From positions 310,001 through 374,000 of the forward strand of contig JAQXDE010000038.1 of NCBI GenBank assembly GCA_029251525.1: a stretch of 64,000 nucleotides of DNA, given 5' to 3'. Each line of letters begins with the position of its first letter. Positions within the stretch are counted from its first letter, which is position 1. A model generated the notes under the pieces. That model had not been told where the DNA came from and searched no databases. It worked only from the letters and a program-made list of their open reading frames with translations. This DNA comes from Saprospiraceae bacterium (GTDB lineage Bacteria > Bacteroidota > Bacteroidia > Chitinophagales > Saprospiraceae). A program made the translations under genes and the position numbers. Below are positions 5,986 to 16,867 of this stretch, piece by piece.

Positions 5986-8900
5986 CTATGCATTCAGTTT
6001 ATATTTGACTCCAATTCGCTCCAATTTTGCAATCATCTCTCCGTCTACATTAACTTTTCGACTAACAGAACGAAATCTTAATTTTATCTGGTTATCAGGT
6101 TCAATTACTTCAATTTTTAGAGGAAGTTTACCTTTGCTGTGTTTACAAATATCTTCTATTTCATCAATTAAGTCGTCTGTTATTTTTTGAACATGTAATT
6201 TCAAAGTAATTGATTCTGTCATTTTTAATCCAATGGCAGCCAATTGCTGAATCTCTTGAACTTTGAACTGATATTCTTCACGGTAATTATTGTATTCGTA
6301 TTTTCCTTTGATAAAAACAACTTCACCTGGCTTCATTCGAGCAGCATAATCATTATAATCATCTCGCCATAATGCTAATTCCAAAGAGCTGTTGTAATCT
6401 TGAATTGTAAAAAATCCGTAACCATTTCCTTTTTTATCAATTCTATTGTTAGCTGCTATAACTACACCTGCGAGATTAAGATTTCCACCTTTATGATTTT
6501 CTAAATCTTCCAAAGTACAGGTCGTATAGTTTTCTATTTCTAATTTATAATCATCTAAAGGATGGCCAGAAATATAAATTCCAGTTACCTCTTTTTCCTT
6601 TGTTAATTTTTCAATTAAGCTCCATTCACGAGCTTGAGGTATTTTTGGTTCAGGACTTAAGATATCTTCAGAGTCTCCAAATAGCGAATTCAAAGACTGT
6701 GCTTTTTGAGCTTGATAAGCATTGCCATAACGTAATAGATGTTCGATAAACGTATCGTATTTTTCCGAGGGAGCATAATAAACCCAACGTGCCATGTCAA
6801 AACAATCTAAACCACCACCTAAGACTAAACTGTCCAAACATCTTTTATTAAAGGAACTTAAATCCAATCGGCGCATCATATCAAAAACATCTTTGAATGG
6901 AACACCAGTTGCTCTTTGTTCCAAAACTGCACTAACAGGACCTGATCCAACTCCTTTTAACGCAGTTAAACCAAATCGAATTTGACCTTTTTTATTGACA
7001 GAAAAGTCTGCTGCACTTTCATTCACATCAGGACTGAGAACATCAATTCCCATTCTTTTACACTCTCGTAAAAAGAAAGTAAGCTTTGAAATATCATTTT
7101 TATTATGCGTTAAAACTGAAGCCATAAATTCAGCAGGGTGGTGTGCTTTTAAATAAGCGGTTTGAAATGCAACTAAAGCATAACAAGTAGAGTGCGATTT
7201 GTTAAATGCATATGAGGCGAAGGCTTCCCAATCTGTCCATACTTTTTTAACAATGGTTTCATCGTGCCCATTCTTTTTACAACCTTCCAAAAACTTAGGC
7301 CACATTTCATCAATTAACTTCTTCTTTTTCTTACCCATCGCTTTACGTAACATATCGGCTTCACCTTTGGTAAAATCGGCTAGTTTTTGCGAGAGTAACA
7401 TCACTTGCTCCTGATAAACTGTAATTCCATATGTTTCCTCCAAATATTCTTTCATGTCAGCGAGGTCATATTTGATTGGTTCTTTTCCGTGTTTTCGTAA
7501 AACGAAAGAGGGAATGTAAGCCAATGGACCAGGACGATACAAAGCATTCATCGCAATCAAATCCTCAAATTTTGTCGGGACTAAATCACGTAAATATTTT
7601 TGCATTCCACTTGACTCATACTGAAATACTCCAATCGTATCACCTCGTTGGAATAGCTTATAAGTTAACTCATCTTCAAGCGGAATTTCATCAGGATCAA
7701 TGTCAAGATCTTTATTTTCTTTGATCATCGCAATCGCATCCTTGATAATTGTCAAAGTTTTTAAACCTAAGAAATCCATTTTTAAAAGCCCTGCATCTTC
7801 CGCTACACTATTATCAAATTGGCTGACCAACATATCAGAATCTTTGGCAACTGTAACGGGGATATATTTAGTGATCTCGTCAGGTGTAATGACAACCCCA
7901 CAAGCATGAATTCCAGTATTTCGGATTGAGCCCTCAAGCTTTCGGGCAGTCTGTAACATTTTTCCAATGTGGTCAGGTTGCTCAGCTAGTTTCCGGAATT
8001 GGTAGGCTTTTTCTACATCTTCCGAATTCATTTTTCCCTTTAGTTTTTTGTTGATGTCTCCATCTTCCAAAACACCTTTAAGCGTTGCTCCAAGTTGAAG
8101 AGGAAAAGTTTTTGCAACTCGATCTACTTCTGAAAGTGGCACATCTAAAACTCTTCCAACATCTCGAATACTACTTTTGGCTGCCATTGTACCATAAGTG
8201 ATAATTTGTGCTACTTGGTTTCGACCATATTTATCAATCACATAATCAATTACTTTTTGTCGTCCTACATCGTCAAAATCAATATCAATATCGGGCATTG
8301 AAATCCGTTCTGGATTAAGAAAACGCTCAAAAAGTAAATCATATTTAATCGGGTCAACATTTGTAATTCCAATACAATATGCAACTGCCGAACCTGCTGC
8401 CGAACCTCGACCTGGGCCAACACTCACACCCATCTCTCGAGCAGTTGTTGTAAAATCTTGAACAATCAAAAAGTATCCAGGATAACCTGATGCTTTGATG
8501 ACACTCAACTCAAAATCTAATCGTTCTTTGATTGCTGGTGTGATGTCTCCATATCTTTTTTTTGCACCTTGGTAGGTCAATCCTCGAAGAAAATCATCTT
8601 GTGTAGTGTAGCCCTCTGGAATTGGGAAATTAGGTAAAAGTACATCCCGTGCTAGCTCAAGCGTTTCGACTTTATCATAAATTTCCATGGTGTTGTCCAC
8701 TGCCTCAGGTATATCTTTAAACAAGACTTTCATCTGATCTTGCGTTTTGAAATAGAAGTCAGAACTTGGAAATTTAAATCGTTTTTCACTAGCCACACTA
8801 CTGGCTGTATTGATGCATAAAAGAATATCGTGTGGTGCCCAATCTTCTTCTTCTACATAGTGAGAATCATTAGTGGCAATAGTTTTTACATTATACTTTT

Positions 8901-9516
8901 TAGCAAGCCTGAGGAGTGTTTGGTTGATATCCTCTTGACTGACACCTAGACCATCAATGTTTTCTAAGCCACCGTGTCGTTGAAATTCGATATAGTAATC
9001 TTCGCCAAAGAGATCAAGCCACCACTTTAATAATTCTTCAGCTTCATCTTCTTTTCCTCGTAAAATAGTTTGCGGCAGTTCTGCTCCAATGCAACAACTT
9101 GTAGCAATTAATCCCTCTGAATATTTAACTAATAGTTCTTTGTCAATTCGAGGATATTTACTGTATAAACCTTCCATGTATCCCAATGAACAAAGCTTAC
9201 AGAGGTTCTCATACCCTGTTCTATTTTTGGCCAAAAGTAATTGATGATATCTTTTATCTTTTTCTCCTTTTGCTCGCGAGAAGGCTTTTTTATGTCGGTC
9301 ATCAACGAGATAAAATTCACAACCTATGATTGGTTTAATATTACGTTTAGTAGCTTCAGCAACAAATTTAAATGCCCCAAACATATTACCATGATCAGTT
9401 AAGGCAACGGCTTTCTGACCATCTGCAGCAGCCTTATCCATCATTCCTGAGATGGAAGATGCTCCGTCAAGTAAAGAGTATTGAGTATGGCAATGAAGAT
9501 GAACGAATTCTGACAT
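5986..9516 (-). CDS. dnaE: DNA polymerase III subunit alpha
   Basis: This is the catalytic subunit of the replicative DNA polymerase. The 1176 residues are normal DnaE length. The N-terminal PHP domain starts with FVHLHCHTQYSLLDG and LTDHGNMFGA. The polymerase active site is PDIDIDFDD, with Asp409 and Asp411 matching E. coli Asp401/Asp403. GPGRGSAAGS lies in the palm region and YQEQVM further on. Toward the C-terminus are a helix-hairpin-helix region and an OB-fold (LNLAGVVIAANNR). The stop is 25 bases from a terminator. The gene upstream on the same strand is the 514-residue helical protein, 124 bases away. Confidence 0.97.
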   Translation of the reverse strand: MSEFVHLHCHTQYSLLDGASSISGMMDKAAADGQKAVALTDHGNMFGAFKFVAEATKRNIKPIIGCEFYLVDDRHKKAFSRAKGEKDKRYHQLLLAKNRTGYENLCKLCSLGYMEGLYSKYPRIDKELLVKYSEGLIATSCCIGAELPQTILRGKEDEAEELLKWWLDLFGEDYYIEFQRHGGLENIDGLGVSQEDINQTLLRLAKKYNVKTIATNDSHYVEEEDWAPHDILLCINTASSVASEKRFKFPSSDFYFKTQDQMKVLFKDIPEAVDNTMEIYDKVETLELARDVLLPNFPIPEGYTTQDDFLRGLTYQGAKKRYGDITPAIKERLDFELSVIKASGYPGYFLIVQDFTTTAREMGVSVGPGRGSAAGSAVAYCIGITNVDPIKYDLLFERFLNPERISMPDIDIDFDDVGRQKVIDYVIDKYGRNQVAQIITYGTMAAKSSIRDVGRVLDVPLSEVDRVAKTFPLQLGATLKGVLEDGDINKKLKGKMNSEDVEKAYQFRKLAEQPDHIGKMLQTARKLEGSIRNTGIHACGVVITPDEITKYIPVTVAKDSDMLVSQFDNSVAEDAGLLKMDFLGLKTLTIIKDAIAMIKENKDLDIDPDEIPLEDELTYKLFQRGDTIGVFQYESSGMQKYLRDLVPTKFEDLIAMNALYRPGPLAYIPSFVLRKHGKEPIKYDLADMKEYLEETYGITVYQEQVMLLSQKLADFTKGEADMLRKAMGKKKKKLIDEMWPKFLEGCKKNGHDETIVKKVWTDWEAFASYAFNKSHSTCYALVAFQTAYLKAHHPAEFMASVLTHNKNDISKLTFFLRECKRMGIDVLSPDVNESAADFSVNKKGQIRFGLTALKGVGSGPVSAVLEQRATGVPFKDVFDMMRRLDLSSFNKRCLDSLVLGGGLDCFDMARWVYYAPSEKYDTFIEHLLRYGNAYQAQKAQSLNSLFGDSEDILSPEPKIPQAREWSLIEKLTKEKEVTGIYISGHPLDDYKLEIENYTTCTLEDLENHKGGNLNLAGVVIAANNRIDKKGNGYGFFTIQDYNSSLELALWRDDYNDYAARMKPGEVVFIKGKYEYNNYREEYQFKVQEIQQLAAIGLKMTESITLKLHVQKITDDLIDEIEDICKHSKGKLPLKIEVIEPDNQIKLRFRSVSRKVNVDGEMIAKLERIGVKYKLNA

Positions 9517-9640
9517 AGTGTCTTTTTATTTATTAAAAAATACGTATAAGTATTGTTATATGTTTTCACAAGATAATCAAAATGGAAACTAATAAAGGTG
9601 TTCAATTAGCTATTTCTCGGAGGTGTGGAAAAGTTTTTTA

Positions 9641-11185
9641 TTAAAACAATCTGGCTCCTTTTCTATCTCTCATTAATTTTCTGTCTAATGATTCCAATAC
9701 CATTTTCCAAAGCATTTCAAAAGGTATTATTTCCATTTCGATAGGTTTACTGGCAACCTCTAGAGGTTTGGTTTTTAATTTCTTAAATAAATCTTTAGTG
9801 TTTCTCTCCAATGCGATTCGATTGTAATTAGATTCTGGGATTTTCAAAAACATTTTAATAAAGCAATTGCTTCTAAAATCATCGTTTTTTCGGAGGTATC
9901 GAGAGGTATAGTTTCTCAAAGCTTCCATTCTTTCATTTACCTCATCTTCTTTCTTTTCGCCAAATAAAAATAAAATTTGTAAAACTAGAATCATAATGTT
10001 CATTCCGCGTTTATCTCTTGAAAAAGCAGGTAAACTTTTGACAAATGATCTAGAATCAAACCTTGGTTTACGTTTATTAATTGGAATTTCAATTTCTCCA
10101 ATTCGAATAAAGTAATCAATAAATGCTTCGATAATATTCCAAAATTCTTTTCCTATTTCTAAATTTGATTTTTTCTTTTTACGAATGAATCTTACTTTTC
10201 TATAAAAACTAAACGCTTCTTGTATTTTTTTTGAATGGAATAAAAGGAGAATGTAAAACTGACTGACAATAAACCAATTTACACTTCCTTCACTCACAAG
10301 AGTTAAGCAATATTTTGCGTCTAAATCAGCTGCTTCATATTCTTTTATTTGAGTGTAGCTACTTAATCTTTTAAATATAAAGTTAAAGATTTGGGTTTTT
10401 GATTGATGAGGTTGATTTTGGAAAAAATGAAGTGCTTGATTGCAAGCCTTGATTGTTCCGATATGATCATTTTCCATTTGAAAACGTAAAACCAGAACAG
10501 TGTGAGCAAATAGACGAAATTGTCTATAAGTTGATTTCTCTAATAAAGGTTCTAATTCTTTAGCATAAGTTTTAGCTATTTTTATGTGAAATGGTTTAAT
10601 GGTTTTAGATTGAACAAAATTACTGGCTAAATTATCGTACATTTCTCTAGCTTGTTCTTCATAGTCTCGATCTTCCTTTAGGTGTTTGAAAATATGATTG
10701 TACCTTTTTAATCTTTTTTGATCCCCGAGAAGTGTTCCATAGTAAGTCCGTAAATCTTTTAGCAAGTTGATGGCAATATCATGAATTTCAAATTTTAAAG
10801 CAATTTTCAAAGTTTTTTCAGAAAGTTTTATGCTTGCTTTTCTAGCACCATGTTCAGCCATAATCTTAATTGCCGCTAAATTTTTATAGCAACTTAAATT
10901 TGCTTTTTGTAAATCAGTATAAGATGACGCGTTTTGATCAATAAAAAAAAGAGTATTTATTGCTCGTTTTTCCAATCTGGATTTAATATTTCTGTAGCCT
11001 TTATTTAGATCATTAGTTCCATATAATTCTTTGCAGGCGTGCGTATCTGAGCTGAATTTTTGCTGCAAAATACCATCATATAGTTTGTATAATTTTTGAT
11101 CTTTAGATAATTCATTGCCAATTATTTCTATATTTTTTACTTTATTCTTTCCCACAATTGATATTAAATCTTTTAAATATTTCAT
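9641..11185 (-). CDS. Hypothetical helical-repeat (TPR-like) protein
   Basis: This 514-residue protein has no signal peptide and no membrane segment, so it is probably cytoplasmic. The first 90 residues form a small basic domain containing LYDGILQQKF, ELYGTNDLNKGY and KSRLEKRAINTLFF, a pattern I associate with uncharacterised Bacteroidetes proteins. From about residue 100 on it is almost all amphipathic helix pairs resembling degenerate TPRs (for example around KACNQALHFF and QIKEYEAADLDAKYCL). It is Lys/Arg-rich throughout. Its 5' side faces the 1 kb region encoding the GG-leader peptide on the other strand. The function is unknown; a regulatory or scaffold role is inference. Confidence 0.8.
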   Translation of the reverse strand: MKYLKDLISIVGKNKVKNIEIIGNELSKDQKLYKLYDGILQQKFSSDTHACKELYGTNDLNKGYRNIKSRLEKRAINTLFFIDQNASSYTDLQKANLSCYKNLAAIKIMAEHGARKASIKLSEKTLKIALKFEIHDIAINLLKDLRTYYGTLLGDQKRLKRYNHIFKHLKEDRDYEEQAREMYDNLASNFVQSKTIKPFHIKIAKTYAKELEPLLEKSTYRQFRLFAHTVLVLRFQMENDHIGTIKACNQALHFFQNQPHQSKTQIFNFIFKRLSSYTQIKEYEAADLDAKYCLTLVSEGSVNWFIVSQFYILLLFHSKKIQEAFSFYRKVRFIRKKKKSNLEIGKEFWNIIEAFIDYFIRIGEIEIPINKRKPRFDSRSFVKSLPAFSRDKRGMNIMILVLQILFLFGEKKEDEVNERMEALRNYTSRYLRKNDDFRSNCFIKMFLKIPESNYNRIALERNTKDLFKKLKTKPLEVASKPIEMEIIPFEMLWKMVLESLDRKLMRDRKGARLF

Positions 11186-11566
11186 TTTATTATTTTTATT
11201 AAATATTTTAAATGGAAATTTAATGATATTTCTTTAAAGGTAACTATATGGTTGTCAAGTATTTATATTTTTACTATGCAGTGTATTTTAATTTAAACTA
11301 AGGTATAATAATTTATTTATTGACTAAAATTATATGTATTTTGACGTGTATATTTGTGAATCAACATTTAAGGACAATTAGAAATAGTTGTTTTTAAATT
11401 TATTAGCTATTATTTGTTGACTTTAGTTATTTCGGCACGTTAATTTTGCTGCAGGTTTTTTGGCATTATCTCAGCAACTTTTTTGGAAATAAGATTTAAA
11501 AGGATGAAGATTTTCAAACTATATTCCAATCATTTAGTTATGATCAGATATAGAGAGGATCCATGA

Positions 11567-11594
11567 TTGTCAGTGCTGCACTTTTATAGTGTTG
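11567..11594 (+). promoter_or_regulatory. Candidate promoter of the GG-leader peptide gene
   Basis: TTG (11567-11569), 17 bases, then TAGTGTTG (11587-11594). The second box matches TAnnTTTG at all but one position. The peptide ATG is 26 bases downstream. Confidence 0.4.
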
Positions 11595-11619
11595 GAGTAG
11601 CCACTTAAAACCATTAAAA

Positions 11620-11739
11620 ATGAGAAAAGACTTTAAAAAACCAATTAAACATTTTACAAGGAATTTAAAAATTTTATCAAAAACTGAAAACAAAAAAATT
11701 AAAGGAGGTATTACAAATGTCGATATAGGAATACTTTAA
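11620..11739 (+). CDS. Double-glycine leader peptide precursor (39 residues)
   Basis: The frame starts MRKDFKKPIKHFTRNLKI, continues LSKTENKKIKGG and ends with ITNVDIGIL before TAA. The middle segment matches the classic double-glycine leader: L at -12, S at -11, E at -8, I at -4, GG at -2/-1, with only the -7 position (N instead of L) off. Bacteroidetes natural-product and bacteriocin-like precursors typically end their leaders in IKGG. Cleavage after GG would release nine mostly hydrophobic residues, very short for a bacteriocin and closer to a signalling peptide. No C39 peptidase or ABC exporter is nearby. A good promoter candidate precedes it. The leader match is seen directly; that the peptide is made and processed is inference. 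Confidence 0.5.
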   Translation: MRKDFKKPIKHFTRNLKILSKTENKKIKGGITNVDIGIL

Positions 11740-12020
11740 AAAGTTATATCTCAAAAATAAACAGTTCAGTAATTAGCTTAAAACTAGGACAAAAACTATT
11801 ATGCACCAACGACATTGTTTTGTTCGAAAACATTTTTGAATTTGCCTTATGATGCCAACATGGGGTAAATATTGAATTCCTCTCTTGAATTCTAGGTAGT
11901 GCGTATATGCTAGACATTTATGCAACGTCTCTTTAAGTGTTCAAGATGAAATACGGAATGAGAACAAAATGTAAGAATTTATCTAAGGCGTGTGTATGAA
12001 GAATTTATTCTTCATTAAAA

Positions 12021-12055
12021 AAAGCTACTAATGAGAATTAGTAGCTTTTGTTTTC
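12021..12055 (+). terminator. Intrinsic terminator (GAGA loop) 1
   Basis: A perfect 9-bp stem GCTACTAAT / ATTAGTAGC with loop GAGA, an A run before and a T-rich tail after. Confidence 0.85.
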
Positions 12056-12113
12056 TTCTTCAATAGAAAAGTATTTTACCCTGATTTCTCGACTTTTAAC
12101 AACACCTTAAGGA

Positions 12114-12142
12114 GAATCTAACGAGAGTTAGATTCTTTTTTA
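12114..12142 (+). terminator. Intrinsic terminator (GAGA loop) 2
   Basis: A perfect 9-bp stem GAATCTAAC / GTTAGATTC with loop GAGA followed by a T run. The T run is on the plus strand only, so it acts on rightward transcripts, 70 bases after the first one. Confidence 0.85.
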
Positions 12143-12202
12143 TTGGTTGACATATTCCCAATGTGACTTGCTTTAAAGCCACCTTGGGAATAAAGTTAAT
12201 AA

Positions 12203-14719
12203 TTAAGGTCTTTTTCCTAATGAGATCATATTGGCAAAAATTCGATATGCTCCTGGAACTCCAGCTGGTAATTCTCTAAACCAAGAATAGCCTGTGTAAA
12301 CATAATATCCTTTTCCGTATTTAGTAATCAATAATCCTCCATCAAGTGCAGGTTCATTTGAATCATTTGAAGAAAGAATCGCTTCGAAATTTTCGTCCCA
12401 TTCGTCTGGGAAATATAATCCACGTTCTTGTACCCATCCATCAAAATCTTTAGATGTAATTTTATTAGGATAATTCATGACATGATGATCTGGTTTTAAG
12501 ATTCGAATCTCAGCTTCTTCTACAGCTACTCGACCTCTAGAAATACTAATTGGGTACGGAGCAATTTTTTCTTTTGGTAATTTTAATCGGTGACCTGTGT
12601 TGTATTGCACAATCATTGTTCCTCCTTGTTCAACATATTCGAATAGTTTATCTTGATAAAATCTGATTCGTTCAATCGTATTGTAAGCACGTATTCCTAA
12701 TATTACTGCATCGAATTTACCCAAATTAGAAGGTGTAATATCTTTGTCTTTGAGTAACGTTACATTGTAACCAATTTGTTCTAGATTGATCGGAATCTCA
12801 TCACCTGCTCCCATGATGTATCCAACATTTTGACCTTCCTTTTTCAAATCAATTTTCACTACTTTAGCTTCAGAATTTTTTACCACCGTTTGAGTTGGAA
12901 TATGATCGTATTCAATAGAAACTAATTCTTGTGTATAAATTTTTTCACCAATTTTTACCAAAGGAGAGATAAAATTTACTTCTTGGTTTTGGGGAGGATA
13001 GAGTTTGAATGTGAAAGATTGTTCTTCACCCTTCATGTTTAATTCAAAATTAACTAAGGCAGGTTCTACCTTCCAGTTTTTATCAGAAAATAATTCTAAA
13101 GTTCCTTTCACATCTGTTTTTCCTGATTTCAATAAAACAGTCACTTCTTTTGGTTTGTCATCAGAGAAAACAAAAACTTTTTCAGTTAGGTTAGCAAAGA
13201 TCGGAATCGTTACCTCAAAGGGTCTGTACACTTCGCCTTTAACAGGATCTGTTTTTTTGTAAATTATTTCTTTTTCAATGAATAATGGAAGACCTTCTAT
13301 GTTCAAATTAAATCGAACTTTGAAATTACGAGGAGTATTAGGTAGACCTCTAAGTTCTTGGTTGTCAACAGAGTACATTCCCAAACTTGCTTTCTTAGTT
13401 AACCAATATGGCCCAGTCAAAGGCATGTCATTTGGTAAATTTAATTTTTTAGAAAACTTATAAGTTTGGTTCCCTTCTAGTTTTAAATTTAGAGTAGAAT
13501 CTAATTCGGTTGGTAAATAATTTACACTTAATAATTCTACATTGGCAGAAGAACGATTAATAATCTCCATATTTAACTCAACTTTTTCGCCTGGAGTAGC
13601 TGAATAATCATTTGCTTTTGCCTCTACAAATAAGCCCATTGAACCAATGATGATATCTTTTAGTTCTTCAAGTTTTATATTTTTGTAATAGCTTTCAGGT
13701 AAATTTGAGATCATTTTATAGGCTTCGGTTAGCAGAGGTAAACTTGCTGCAGGGTTTCCGTAATTAAAATTACGGTCTACTTGTTCCAATAACAGCCCAA
13801 TTGCCTTTCCTCCCTTTATTCGAGTCCAGGAAGTATTGATTCCATCAAAAATGTCTTCTTTATTTTTAGGCATATCGCCTTTGAGTAATTCTAAATATTC
13901 CATTTGTGCACCACGTGAAGGAGTAGAACCCATACCCTGGCATTTGTGCATACTTCGACTTTCAGCTGCAATTTCATTATTTGATTTCCCTTTGATTGGA
14001 TAATAAACACCTGCGTCAACACCCACCATCTTGGACTTATCTGCTGCTGCAAATTTTTCACGACTACCATAAAACCACCAAGAGGTATTCATAAATAATC
14101 GTTGAGGTTGCCAAGGTTTTACGTATTTTAATTGCTCAGGAAATTTAGTTTTATCGCCGACTAAATCGAAGGCTTTATGTGAGAGAACTGCTGAAGAAGT
14201 ATGATGGCCATGTGTTCGTCTTCCTGAATCATGTGAGAAACGATTAATTACCACGTCAGGTTGAAATTTTCGAATTGCCCAAACTACATCAGCAACTACT
14301 TCATCTTGTTCCCATATTTTCAACGTCTCATCTGGCTTTTTGGAATAACCAAAATCGTTTGCTCTACTGAACATTTGTTTTCCTCCATCTACGCGTCTAG
14401 CTGCTAAAAGCTCTTCAGTTCTTATGACACCAAGCAATTCACGAATTTCGGGACCTATCAAATTTTGACCACCATCGCCTCTCGTCAATGAAAGGTATGC
14501 TGTATTCATTTTAAGTTCATTAGATAGGTAAGCAATCATTCTAGTGTTCTCATCATCAGGATGAGCCGCTACATAAAGAACACTTCCAAGAACTTGAAGT
14601 TTTTGAATCTTTTCATGAATGTTGCCTGAGGTTAACTTTTTTGGCGATTGAGCATGGATATTTTGTGTTAAAAAAATACCTAGAAAAAGTATCAACCCAA
14701 TATTTAAAATTTTCTTCAT
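12203..14719 (-). CDS. PIG-L family deacetylase with C-terminal amidotransferase-like domain
   Basis: The frame runs to 14752, but the ATG at 14719 begins a standard signal peptide (MKKILNIGLILFLG, cleavage near IHAQ), giving 838 residues. After the signal comes a PIG-L/LmbE zinc-dependent deacetylase domain: YVAAHPDDENTRMIAYLS carries the AHPDDE metal motif, and THGHHTSSAV the second ligand group. The middle is beta-rich, without a recognised name. Around residues 640-838 is a class I glutamine amidotransferase-like fold (FDAVILGIRAYNTIER, GGTMIVQYNTGH). Relatives in Bacteroidetes are exported and thought to act on N-acetylated sugars; the substrate is unknown. It is monocistronic on the minus strand. 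Confidence 0.88.
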   Translation of the reverse strand: MKKILNIGLILFLGIFLTQNIHAQSPKKLTSGNIHEKIQKLQVLGSVLYVAAHPDDENTRMIAYLSNELKMNTAYLSLTRGDGGQNLIGPEIRELLGVIRTEELLAARRVDGGKQMFSRANDFGYSKKPDETLKIWEQDEVVADVVWAIRKFQPDVVINRFSHDSGRRTHGHHTSSAVLSHKAFDLVGDKTKFPEQLKYVKPWQPQRLFMNTSWWFYGSREKFAAADKSKMVGVDAGVYYPIKGKSNNEIAAESRSMHKCQGMGSTPSRGAQMEYLELLKGDMPKNKEDIFDGINTSWTRIKGGKAIGLLLEQVDRNFNYGNPAASLPLLTEAYKMISNLPESYYKNIKLEELKDIIIGSMGLFVEAKANDYSATPGEKVELNMEIINRSSANVELLSVNYLPTELDSTLNLKLEGNQTYKFSKKLNLPNDMPLTGPYWLTKKASLGMYSVDNQELRGLPNTPRNFKVRFNLNIEGLPLFIEKEIIYKKTDPVKGEVYRPFEVTIPIFANLTEKVFVFSDDKPKEVTVLLKSGKTDVKGTLELFSDKNWKVEPALVNFELNMKGEEQSFTFKLYPPQNQEVNFISPLVKIGEKIYTQELVSIEYDHIPTQTVVKNSEAKVVKIDLKKEGQNVGYIMGAGDEIPINLEQIGYNVTLLKDKDITPSNLGKFDAVILGIRAYNTIERIRFYQDKLFEYVEQGGTMIVQYNTGHRLKLPKEKIAPYPISISRGRVAVEEAEIRILKPDHHVMNYPNKITSKDFDGWVQERGLYFPDEWDENFEAILSSNDSNEPALDGGLLITKYGKGYYVYTGYSWFRELPAGVPGAYRIFANMISLGKRP

Positions 14720-14879
14720 CGTTAATTCTTTTACATTTAATTTGAAAGACAAATATATAAAGGTTTAAATAGAAAATAAGGTTTAAATGAGGATAGTATA
14801 TTGCGATATGATGGTCTATTTTAGCTGACCTAAATCTCACAGTTGATTCATTTTTAGGCTAGAAAAATAAACCACTATG

Positions 14880-15368
14880 CTAAAAAGAAAATTTTAGTCG
14901 TAATCGATAAGCTGAGTTTTCGTTAAAAGTTGGAAAAGCATAATTTCCATATCTATAATAAATACCTCCTCCTAGTCCTACAAGCATGATATTGAAATAA
15001 TTAAATCGAATCAAATTGTCAATTCGTAATCCACTTTCGAAAAAGCCTCTTTCCATTGTTTTAAATTCAATATTTTTGTGTATTTCTGAAATTTTGAGTG
15101 AGCCAAAGCCGATGTTTTGTACAATGGAGAGTTCTGGTTTGAAATTTTTATATTAAAAAAGAAGTGTCTCAAAATTATGTTCCAAGAATAGATGAATAAA
15201 CCGGTCAGATAAAAATTCGTAAATATCCATTGTTTGAAAGGTATTTTTAAATTCTAAAAATTGAAACCCTCGACCGATACCACTTATTGAATAAAGTTGG
15301 CTATAAGGAATCCTTCCACTTGCTAATCCTGTTTAAAACCTGATTTCAATAAATTCATTTCTTCGCAT
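14880..15368 (-). pseudogene. Decayed C-terminal part of a DUF5686-like outer membrane protein
   Basis: Reading the minus strand in one frame gives a coherent protein tail interrupted by stops. In order: MRRNEFIEIRF, stop; TGLASGRIPYSQLYSISGIG and FQTMDIYEFLSDRFIHL, stop after LLF; then KNFKPELSIVQNIGFGS, MERGFFESGLRIDN and the end GIYYRYGNYAFPTF...LRLKFSF. This is the layout of the C-terminal beta-barrel of DUF5686-type outer membrane proteins, which are normally around 800 residues. In-frame TAA codons stand at 15369-15371, 15333-15335 and 15153-15155, and the N-terminal two thirds is absent. The frame is otherwise conserved over 480 bases, so decay is recent or mild. Confidence 0.72.
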
Positions 15369-15456
15369 TTATATTTTACGTTGAAAACTTGTTATCCTTT
15401 GTAAAAGATAAATAAATTTCATTAAGAGTAATTAATAAAGATTAGGTCATAATAGA

Positions 15457-15498
15457 AAAGTGGAGGTATCAAAATTAATCGATAACTCCACTTTTTTA
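15457..15498 (-). terminator. Terminator of the efp-accB-accC unit
   Basis: The inverted repeat AAAAGTGGAGGTATC / GATAACTCCACTTTT lies 25 bases past the accC stop, with A/T runs on both sides. Confidence 0.75.
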
Positions 15499-15520
15499 TT
15501 TTTAATATATTTAGAATCGT

Positions 15521-16867
15521 TTATTTAGGGTCTTTTAAATCAAAAGTATCTATAAATCCTGTATGGAATTTTCCTGATTTAAACGTTTCATCATCCATTA
15601 ATTGTTGATGAAATGGAATCGTCGTTTTAATGCCCTCTACGATAAATTCGTCCAAAGCTCTTTTCATTTTTTTGATGCATTCCTCTCTAGTTTGTGCTCG
15701 ACAAATCAATTTGGCAATCATCGAATCATAAAAAGGTGGGATTTCATAACCTGCATAAACATGTGTGTCTACTCGAACCCCATGGCCTTTTGCACTATGA
15801 AAAGAGGTAATCTTTCCAGGAGAAGGACGAAAGTTCTTGAAAACATCTTCGGCATTGATTCTACATTCAATGGCATGCATTGTAGGTAAATAATTCTTTC
15901 CAGAAATTGGATGGCCTGCAGCAAGTTTGATTTGTTCTTTGATCAGATCATGATCGATTACCTCTTCAGTAACGGTATGTTCTACTTGGATACGAGTATT
16001 CATTTCCATGAAGTAGAAATTTTTGTGTTTATCTACTAAAAATTCTACTGTTCCTACACCTTCGTAGCCAATAAATTCAGCTGCTAGGATGGCAGAATCT
16101 CCCATTTTTTTACGAAGAGCCTTAGTTAAAAATGGGGAAGGAGCTTCTTCAACTAATTTTTGATGACGTCGTTGAATCGAACAATCTCTTTCTGATAGGT
16201 GACAAGCTTTACCAGTTTGATCAGAAGCGATTTGGATTTCGATATGACGAGGTTCTTCAATAAATTTTTCGATATAAATACCATCATTAGTAAATGATGC
16301 TTTTGCTTCTTGCTTAGCTTGATCCCATGCTTCTTGAAAATCGTCTGGTTTCCAAACTATTCTCATACCTTTTCCACCGCCACCAGCTGTTGCTTTTAGG
16401 ATAATAGGGTAGCCAATATCTTTTGCTTCTTTTAAGCCAGATTTTAAATCTTTTAATAAACCACCAGAACCTGGTACCACAGGTACTCCTGCCTTAATCA
16501 TTGTTTCTTTAGCAGTAATCTTATCTCCCATTTTTCTGATGTGCTCAGGAGTTGGTCCTATAAATTTGATACCATATTCTGCACATACTTCAGCAAAATC
16601 AGCATTTTCTGCCAAGAATCCATAGCCAGGATGTAAAGCATCGGCATTGGTGATTTCAACAGCAGCCATAATTTTAGGAATACTTAAGTAAGATTCAGCT
16701 GAAGATGCTGGCCCGATACAGACTGCTTCGTCGGCAAATCTTACATGAAGACTATCTTTATCTGCGGTAGAGTAAACTGCAACGGTTTTGATTCCCATTT
16801 CCTTGCAAGTTCTAATTACTCGCAAAGCAATTTCTCCCCGATTGGCGATGAGTATTTTTTTAAACAT
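15521..16867 (-). CDS. accC: Acetyl-CoA carboxylase, biotin carboxylase subunit
   Basis: This subunit carboxylates the biotin on AccB using ATP and bicarbonate, the first step of fatty acid synthesis. The start is the ATG at 16867 ([16 protein letters not shown]); the frame extends ten codons further but that start has no support. Length is 448 residues, typical of AccC. Seen motifs: the N-terminal biotin-carboxylase domain ([15 protein letters not shown]), the ATP-grasp glycine loop ([14 protein letters not shown]), [31 protein letters not shown] in the active site, and the C-terminal domain (IECRINAED). It is third in the efp-accB-accC array, 98 bases after accB. Confidence 0.96.

Follow-up and report, generated by a model that had tools for sequence, protein, structure and literature searches.

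Do two facing genes, one for a very short peptide behind an export leader and the other for a large helical protein, form a system by which cells of the Bacteroidota communicate? The question is raised by a stretch of 64,000 nucleotides from a Saprospiraceae bacterium (assembly GCA_029251525.1, contig JAQXDE010000038.1, positions 310,001 to 374,000), referred to here as the window. The host genome comprises 5.25 Mb in 66 contigs, and the nearest relatives by the large gene are recorded as Saprospiraceae. The two genes, of 514 and 39 codons, are divergent and separated by 434 bases; both promoters presumably lie between them. In window coordinates, the pair consists of:

9641–11185, minus strand: proposed intracellular peptide receptor of 514 residues, all-helical and tetratricopeptide repeat (TPR)-like by its predicted fold
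11186–11619, no strand: intergenic region between both start codons, about 73% identical to that of the nearest congener
11620–11739, plus strand: propeptide gene of 39 codons with the double-glycine (GG) leader LSKTENKKIKGG and the C-terminal nonapeptide ITNVDIGIL, as indicated by the sequence, orthologues in three congeners and similar C-terminal ends on other carriers
11620–11709, plus strand: coding part of the leader, residues 1–30, with the Gly-Gly end, by sequence and the known leader consensus
11710–11736, plus strand: coding part of the proposed mature peptide ITNVDIGIL, by sequence

The two genes probably encode a propeptide and a cytoplasmic receptor that work like the RRNPP systems of Gram-positive bacteria. 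By analogy with these, the module most likely consists of a small precursor, exported and giving rise to a peptide from its C-terminus, and a TPR-like protein that senses this peptide inside cells. A preliminary description had noted a 39-codon GG-leader gene divergent from a 514-residue helical protein, which the sequence confirms, and had suggested a peptide-communication module. The suggestion gains support from the recurrence of paired frames and from a fold nearest to that of RRNPP receptors; the signalling itself we infer.

Recurrence of the GG-leader gene

The 39-residue product consists of MRKDFKKPIKHFTRNLKILSKTENKKIKGG followed by ITNVDIGIL. GG leaders mark substrates of C39 exporters, and their consensus comprises the GG end and hydrophobic residues at positions -4 and -12, all of which are found in LSKTENKKIKGG. 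In Bacteroidota such leaders are best known from precursors of bacteriocins or modified peptides. The small gene could encode a precursor of this type, with the large gene providing immunity or regulation, a reading also favored by a match of the 39-residue peptide to leader_Chryseo (NCBIfam) that, at 12.3 bits, is under the cut-off of 23.5. Arguing against it are the core of only nine residues, the similar C-terminal ends on carriers without a GG leader and the absence of modification or exporter genes among the window's open reading frames from 7000 to 16000, as judged by eye and with no family search. We consider this possibility improbable.

Full-length orthologues of the large protein occur in three congeners, with identities of 84, 60 and 57%. 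All three are accompanied by a divergent GG-leader frame of 38–39 residues, with the cores ITNTDLGVI, ITNTDVLGD and ITNTEITDV. A GG-leader frame with a longer core is divergent from a paralogue in congener G004 (L125; L numbers denote loci and G numbers genomes), and outside the genus such frames are divergent from three receptors, at L101 (LVVTDVLAF), L099 (IMAIDIDGL) and L035 (IIEQDILVG). GG-leader frames beside relatives of the receptor, which the preliminary description had set as a test, are therefore present within the genus and, beyond the genus, beside a few receptors. Purifying selection on the 39 codons, set as another test, is indicated over the longer distance, where dS (1.86) exceeds dN (0.44) about fourfold in a comparison with L096, but not in the nearest congener, where dN/dS is about 0.9; the near equality of dN and dS in the latter arises because the whole region is conserved.

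This regional conservation could also mean that the region is non-coding and that the 39 codons form a frame in it by chance, the more so as the frame is followed by another conserved feature:

11817–12054, plus strand: genus-conserved RNA-like element with a terminator hairpin end, downstream of the peptide gene, with matches in G000, G002, G003 and G004

However, frame, leader and core are retained in the farther congeners, where dS is much higher than dN. In G002 and G003, moreover, the RNA-like element lies between the receptor and the GG peptide gene, with the frame on its other side, such that the order differs among congeners. An accidental frame is hardly credible. The RNA-like element itself is 85% identical in G004, 73% in G002 and 84% over 95 bases in G003, which contains a short second match, and its core TAAGAATTTATCTAAGGCGTGTGT is invariant in an alignment of the four genomes. 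No Rfam family was found for it, nor did it occur outside the genus among 40 genomes searched, including the host's own.

Two further GG-leader frames were observed. At L152, a GG-leader peptide that looks unrelated and whose core contains Cys and Gly lies at -1280 to -1101 of a receptor that also has a hydrophobic-leader partner. In the host genome, L219 (contig C20, 1432–1692, minus strand) contains a second frame with the leader LSKKELRQIKGG and the core IGNDDIEAGIGNDDIESNFIGPDDLDNI, in which DD[IL] occurs three times; by eye, there was no receptor within the 3-kb locus.

C-terminal ends and their carriers

Many other receptors are accompanied by a divergent frame, often of 38–50 residues, that in most cases lies no more than 600 bases from the start of the receptor. 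Its N-terminus is hydrophobic (consensus MAxIIAxLxSLGIIxSPxxAT) and mostly without basic residues. The C-termini on these carriers are of the same kind as that of the window peptide, such as IVNTDISGI, VVGTDLDSM (L102, in the type strain Flavilitoribacter nigricans DSM 23189), ITLDLDEF and IVNDDMNGW, whereas some hydrophobic matches, chiefly outside the family, lack this D-motif. Peptides of a third set are encoded on the same strand as the receptor, immediately up- or downstream of it; their N-termini are unrelated, in several cases hydrophilic, and their ends include VIIIDITGV, VIVIDITGV and IIVIDVMGV. Rule-based assignment in 152 loci yielded 9 GG, 51 hydrophobic or probable and 15 co-directional partners, mostly of 23–90 residues; three assignments (L151, L154, L188) were judged wrong. 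The same rules applied around 248 other large frames gave 8 matches, 6 of which flank an apparent further receptor paralogue. The recurrent part is the C-terminal peptide and not the GG leader, which is one of several carriers. The leader to which the preliminary description had drawn attention as a mark does recur, but not as the feature common to the pairs.

The position of these ends was examined by counting the D-motif at the end of ATG frames of 24–75 codons in 126 usable loci. It was present in 33 of 152 divergent frames between -600 and -100 vs 7 of 144 frames on the receptor's strand, 6 of which are co-directional peptides of the third set. Control regions gave 3/92 and 4/123 divergent frames farther upstream and 13/392 and 6/396 frames downstream. 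A profile from 30 seeds, run against 15,130 frames in the 152 loci, some of which overlap, produced 52 matches at E<=0.01, of which 45 were divergent and adjacent (28 seeds, 17 new). The other seven comprised one peptide viewed twice from neighboring receptors, four further tandem copies upstream (L196–L198) and one frame downstream (L195). The strict C-terminal pattern [VI][IVL][IVL][IVLT]D[IVL]xGx was found in 13 of the 15,130 frames, all co-directional, and 12 of them adjoin a receptor. In 60 whole genomes, a 25-row peptide profile had 12 matches at E<=0.01, every one divergent from a receptor homologue; six were members of the training set and six were not, three of the latter having been seeds of the 30-seed profile. 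Ten matches fell between 0.01 and 0.1, four beside receptors and six elsewhere. L196, L197 and L198 belong to distant homologues in another family of the class, in which two or three tandem hydrophobic small proteins of 48 residues, ending in IIWETNEK, lie upstream of a receptor homologue.

Eight co-directional upstream peptides, whose receptors form one clade, share a mean identity of 0.83 in their last nine residues (28 pairs), a value inflated by the partial choice of the eight by motif, vs 0.13 in the preceding residues when these are aligned from the core. Their nine C-terminal codons vary freely at silent positions; neither this variation nor the sharing of the last residues is affected by the choice. 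Because the last nine residues are conserved while their codons vary silently and the rest has diverged, we read this as selection acting on the C-terminal nonapeptide.

A tree of 138 receptors, eight rows of which belong to the GG class, requires four gains or losses of the GG leader, at least three of them on well-supported branches. Relatives of the GG-class receptors carry hydrophobic N-termini, and repeated gain of the GG leader is a simpler reading than loss. A single locus of G002 contains a GG frame ending in ITNTDVLGD together with a non-GG frame ending in ITNTDILGD; at the corresponding place in G003 there is a 15-codon TTG frame ending in IIQTDVTEV. That the leader replacing another also serves export speaks for export as the common purpose of the exchanged leaders. 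The large number of divergent partners of about 38–50 residues with a hydrophobic N-terminus would also suit a toxin–antitoxin pair, in which a small hydrophobic toxin is neutralized by the large helical protein, but the window peptide and several co-directional ones do not look membrane-spanning and have the same kind of C-terminus. A toxin–antitoxin function is very improbable.

Candidates for peptide transport, as judged by their sequences, are encoded in the host genome. The C39 ABC exporter that the preliminary description proposed to look for exists in two full-length copies, on contigs C48 and C57, neither adjacent to the pair and each followed by a frame that looks HlyD-like; under the filter used, no GG peptide was found beside them. 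A third C39 match is partial and stop-ridden. C39 domains occur in 24 of 40 genomes including the host's own; these 24 include G018, which also contains GG pairs, and every one of the five genomes of the genus. Import candidates are two OppA-like proteins and one POT transporter.

Alternatively, the nonapeptide may be a ligand of the helical protein and yet never leave the producing cell, serving there as a small adaptor or sensor. Several co-directional peptides (for example L138, L144 and L146) agree with this, having a hydrophilic N-terminus without an export signal and yet a highly conserved C-terminus. The swaps between GG leaders and hydrophobic N-termini, at least three on well-supported branches, are hard to explain without export, and the C39 domains in all genomes of the genus likewise speak against a purely intracellular role, which we regard as unlikely. 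The same hydrophilic carriers are the main difficulty for export as a common purpose. Together with the 77 of 152 loci, about half of the homologues examined, to which no peptide was assigned, they weigh against the reading of the pairs as propeptide and receptor.

Whether the findings extend to a general statement seems to us evenly balanced: Bacteroidota would possess a widespread, undescribed family of cytoplasmic peptide-pheromone receptors, often with several paralogues per genome and many with their own propeptide, the signal being a C-terminal D-motif nonapeptide that has repeatedly passed from one export leader to another (a hydrophobic one, a C39 double-glycine one or no recognisable one), with the cargo conserved and the export route exchanged.

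The large protein and its predicted fold

The 514-residue product matched no Pfam or NCBIfam family at E<=1 and, by sequence, no solved structure. Homologues were found in 40 of 60 genomes, the host's own included, at up to 13 places per genome, and in 51 of 295 genomes sampled from the class, again with the host's own. None of 65 aligned members showed a convincing known family in Pfam or NCBIfam (best NCBIfam E 0.0076). The best Pfam match was Cohesin_load (one of 65 members, E 0.00024), and TPR_8 matched six weakly (best E 0.0049). A profile of the 65 members retrieved 11 PDB sequences at E<=1, namely kinesin light chains and one designed TPR (best E 0.17), with no RRNPP receptor among them.

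The model predicted from the same alignment is all-helical and of high confidence, with a pLDDT of 87.9 and a pTM of 0.83. In a structural comparison the top seven entries were all RRNPP receptors: RapJ with peptide (score 17.9), Rap of pLS20 (17.8 and 17.5), NprR (17.7), Rap of phi3T (17.6), Rap of phi105 (17.2) and RapI (17.0). LGN and Rpn6 (16.5) and AimR (13.6–15.5) came next; Foldseek alone returned nothing at E<=0.001. The TPR domains of LGN and RRNPP proteins are alike according to the paper on Rap of pLS20 (PMC7430634), and therefore the fold supports peptide binding more than strict kinship.

Nine residues (N303, P386, K392, G394, N396, I399, L400, S439, M445) are 0.91–0.98 conserved in 64 paired receptors and 0–0.21 conserved in 14 rows of a peptide-less clade. 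By their sequence pattern they are candidate binding residues, a prediction. They were not retained as a demonstrated binding site, since 303, 386, 392, 394, 396, 439 and 445 are also present in most receptors without an assigned peptide; phylogenetically independent pairs gave no clear significance for 303, 394 and 396. Mantel tests, which left out L151, L154, L188 and the loci from the 295-genome sample, yielded r 0.25 for all 63 pairs (0 of 5000 permutations as high) and r 0.16 for 48 divergent pairs (28/5000). Covariation of receptor and peptide beyond shared recent ancestry is not claimed, because r was -0.06 (3653/5000) among the 29 divergent pairs with less than 50% mutual receptor identity.

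The only other family member found in the host genome, at L061 (5067–6572, plus strand), belongs to a clade of 15 tree rows, none with a detected peptide, in which several residues near-invariant in paired receptors are altered. Tandem receptor paralogues occur at L130, L137, L146 and L093; at the first three, one co-directional peptide gene sits between two receptors.

Proposed mechanism and known systems

Upon the recurrent pairing, the conserved C-terminus amid a variable rest, the differing carriers, the receptor-like predicted fold and the transporter candidates, all findings of this analysis, we base a mechanism whose cleavage, export, import, binding and output we infer. The 39-residue propeptide would be cleaved behind Gly-Gly and leave the cell through a C39 (PCAT) ABC transporter whose gene lies elsewhere. 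After re-entry into neighboring cells, perhaps via an oligopeptide permease, ITNVDIGIL would bind to the helical solenoid of the 514-residue protein. This would switch how the N-terminal domain of the protein acts, possibly on the divergent promoter and on the RNA-like element downstream of the peptide gene.

With Rap-Phr and NprR-NprX, which include the best structural matches, the pair shares a small propeptide gene adjoining a TPR-type receptor gene, in line with the RRNPP adjacency criterion, and a mature peptide expected from the propeptide C-terminus. It differs in its phylum, the lack of detected sequence similarity, the often divergent arrangement and the GG leader, where the RRNPP criterion expects secretion by Sec. 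The receptor of 514 residues and most homologues, of about 490–530, are at or just over the RRNPP range of about 250–500. A non-HTH (helix-turn-helix) N-terminal bundle is known from Rap of pLS20 (PMC7430634), and the 39 residues of the peptide fit the propeptide criterion of 10–100 (PMC10075063). The pair is not assigned to RRNPP because sequence kinship, a TPR profile match, the secretion route and an effector domain are not established.

Rgg-SHP systems likewise have a short, hydrophobic C-terminal peptide that contains Gly and a single acidic residue; VIIIDITGV may be compared with SHP3 C8, DIIIIVGG (PMC3150281). The last eight or nine residues of a streptococcal SHP suffice for activity (PMC3150281), and a central acidic residue with a C-terminal glycine is frequent among predicted SHPs (PMC12445099). 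VIIIDITGV resembles these peptides in kind and not through shared descent. In Rgg, an N-terminal HTH is combined with a C-terminal region of about 220 residues (PMC3150281), whereas the receptors here have about 500, and the acidic residue is farther inside. As to the arbitrium AimR-AimP-AimX system, no relative was found in viral contigs or phage records; the RNA-like element, known here from its sequence, invites comparison with AimX (PMC6458997) but was found in one genus only. Shared with C39/PCAT peptides are the leader LSKTENKKIKGG and the C39 exporters in the genome, but here the exporters are not beside the peptide, the core has nine residues and the partner is a helical receptor-like protein.

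Intracellular peptide quorum sensing has been described for Gram-positive bacteria, their phages and plasmids, and Bacteroidota are common in gut, marine and wastewater communities. Among open-licence papers, no RRNPP, peptide pheromone or quorum-sensing system of this kind in Bacteroidota or Saprospiraceae appeared by title or abstract. The RRNPP_detector survey covered Firmicutes and viruses, and Bacteroidetes are mentioned once in the available text, for their abundance in the gut (PMC10075063). If the pairing is one of signal and receptor, a whole family of short synthetic peptides becomes testable at once, communication among Bacteroidota cells can be put to direct tests, and the leader exchange is a natural experiment for studying how a signal comes to use another export route.

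Past the terminator, a large gene occupies 12203–14752 on the minus strand of the window. By eye, the end of a similar gene follows the pair in G003 (L096), and therefore the neighborhood is at least partly syntenic within the genus.
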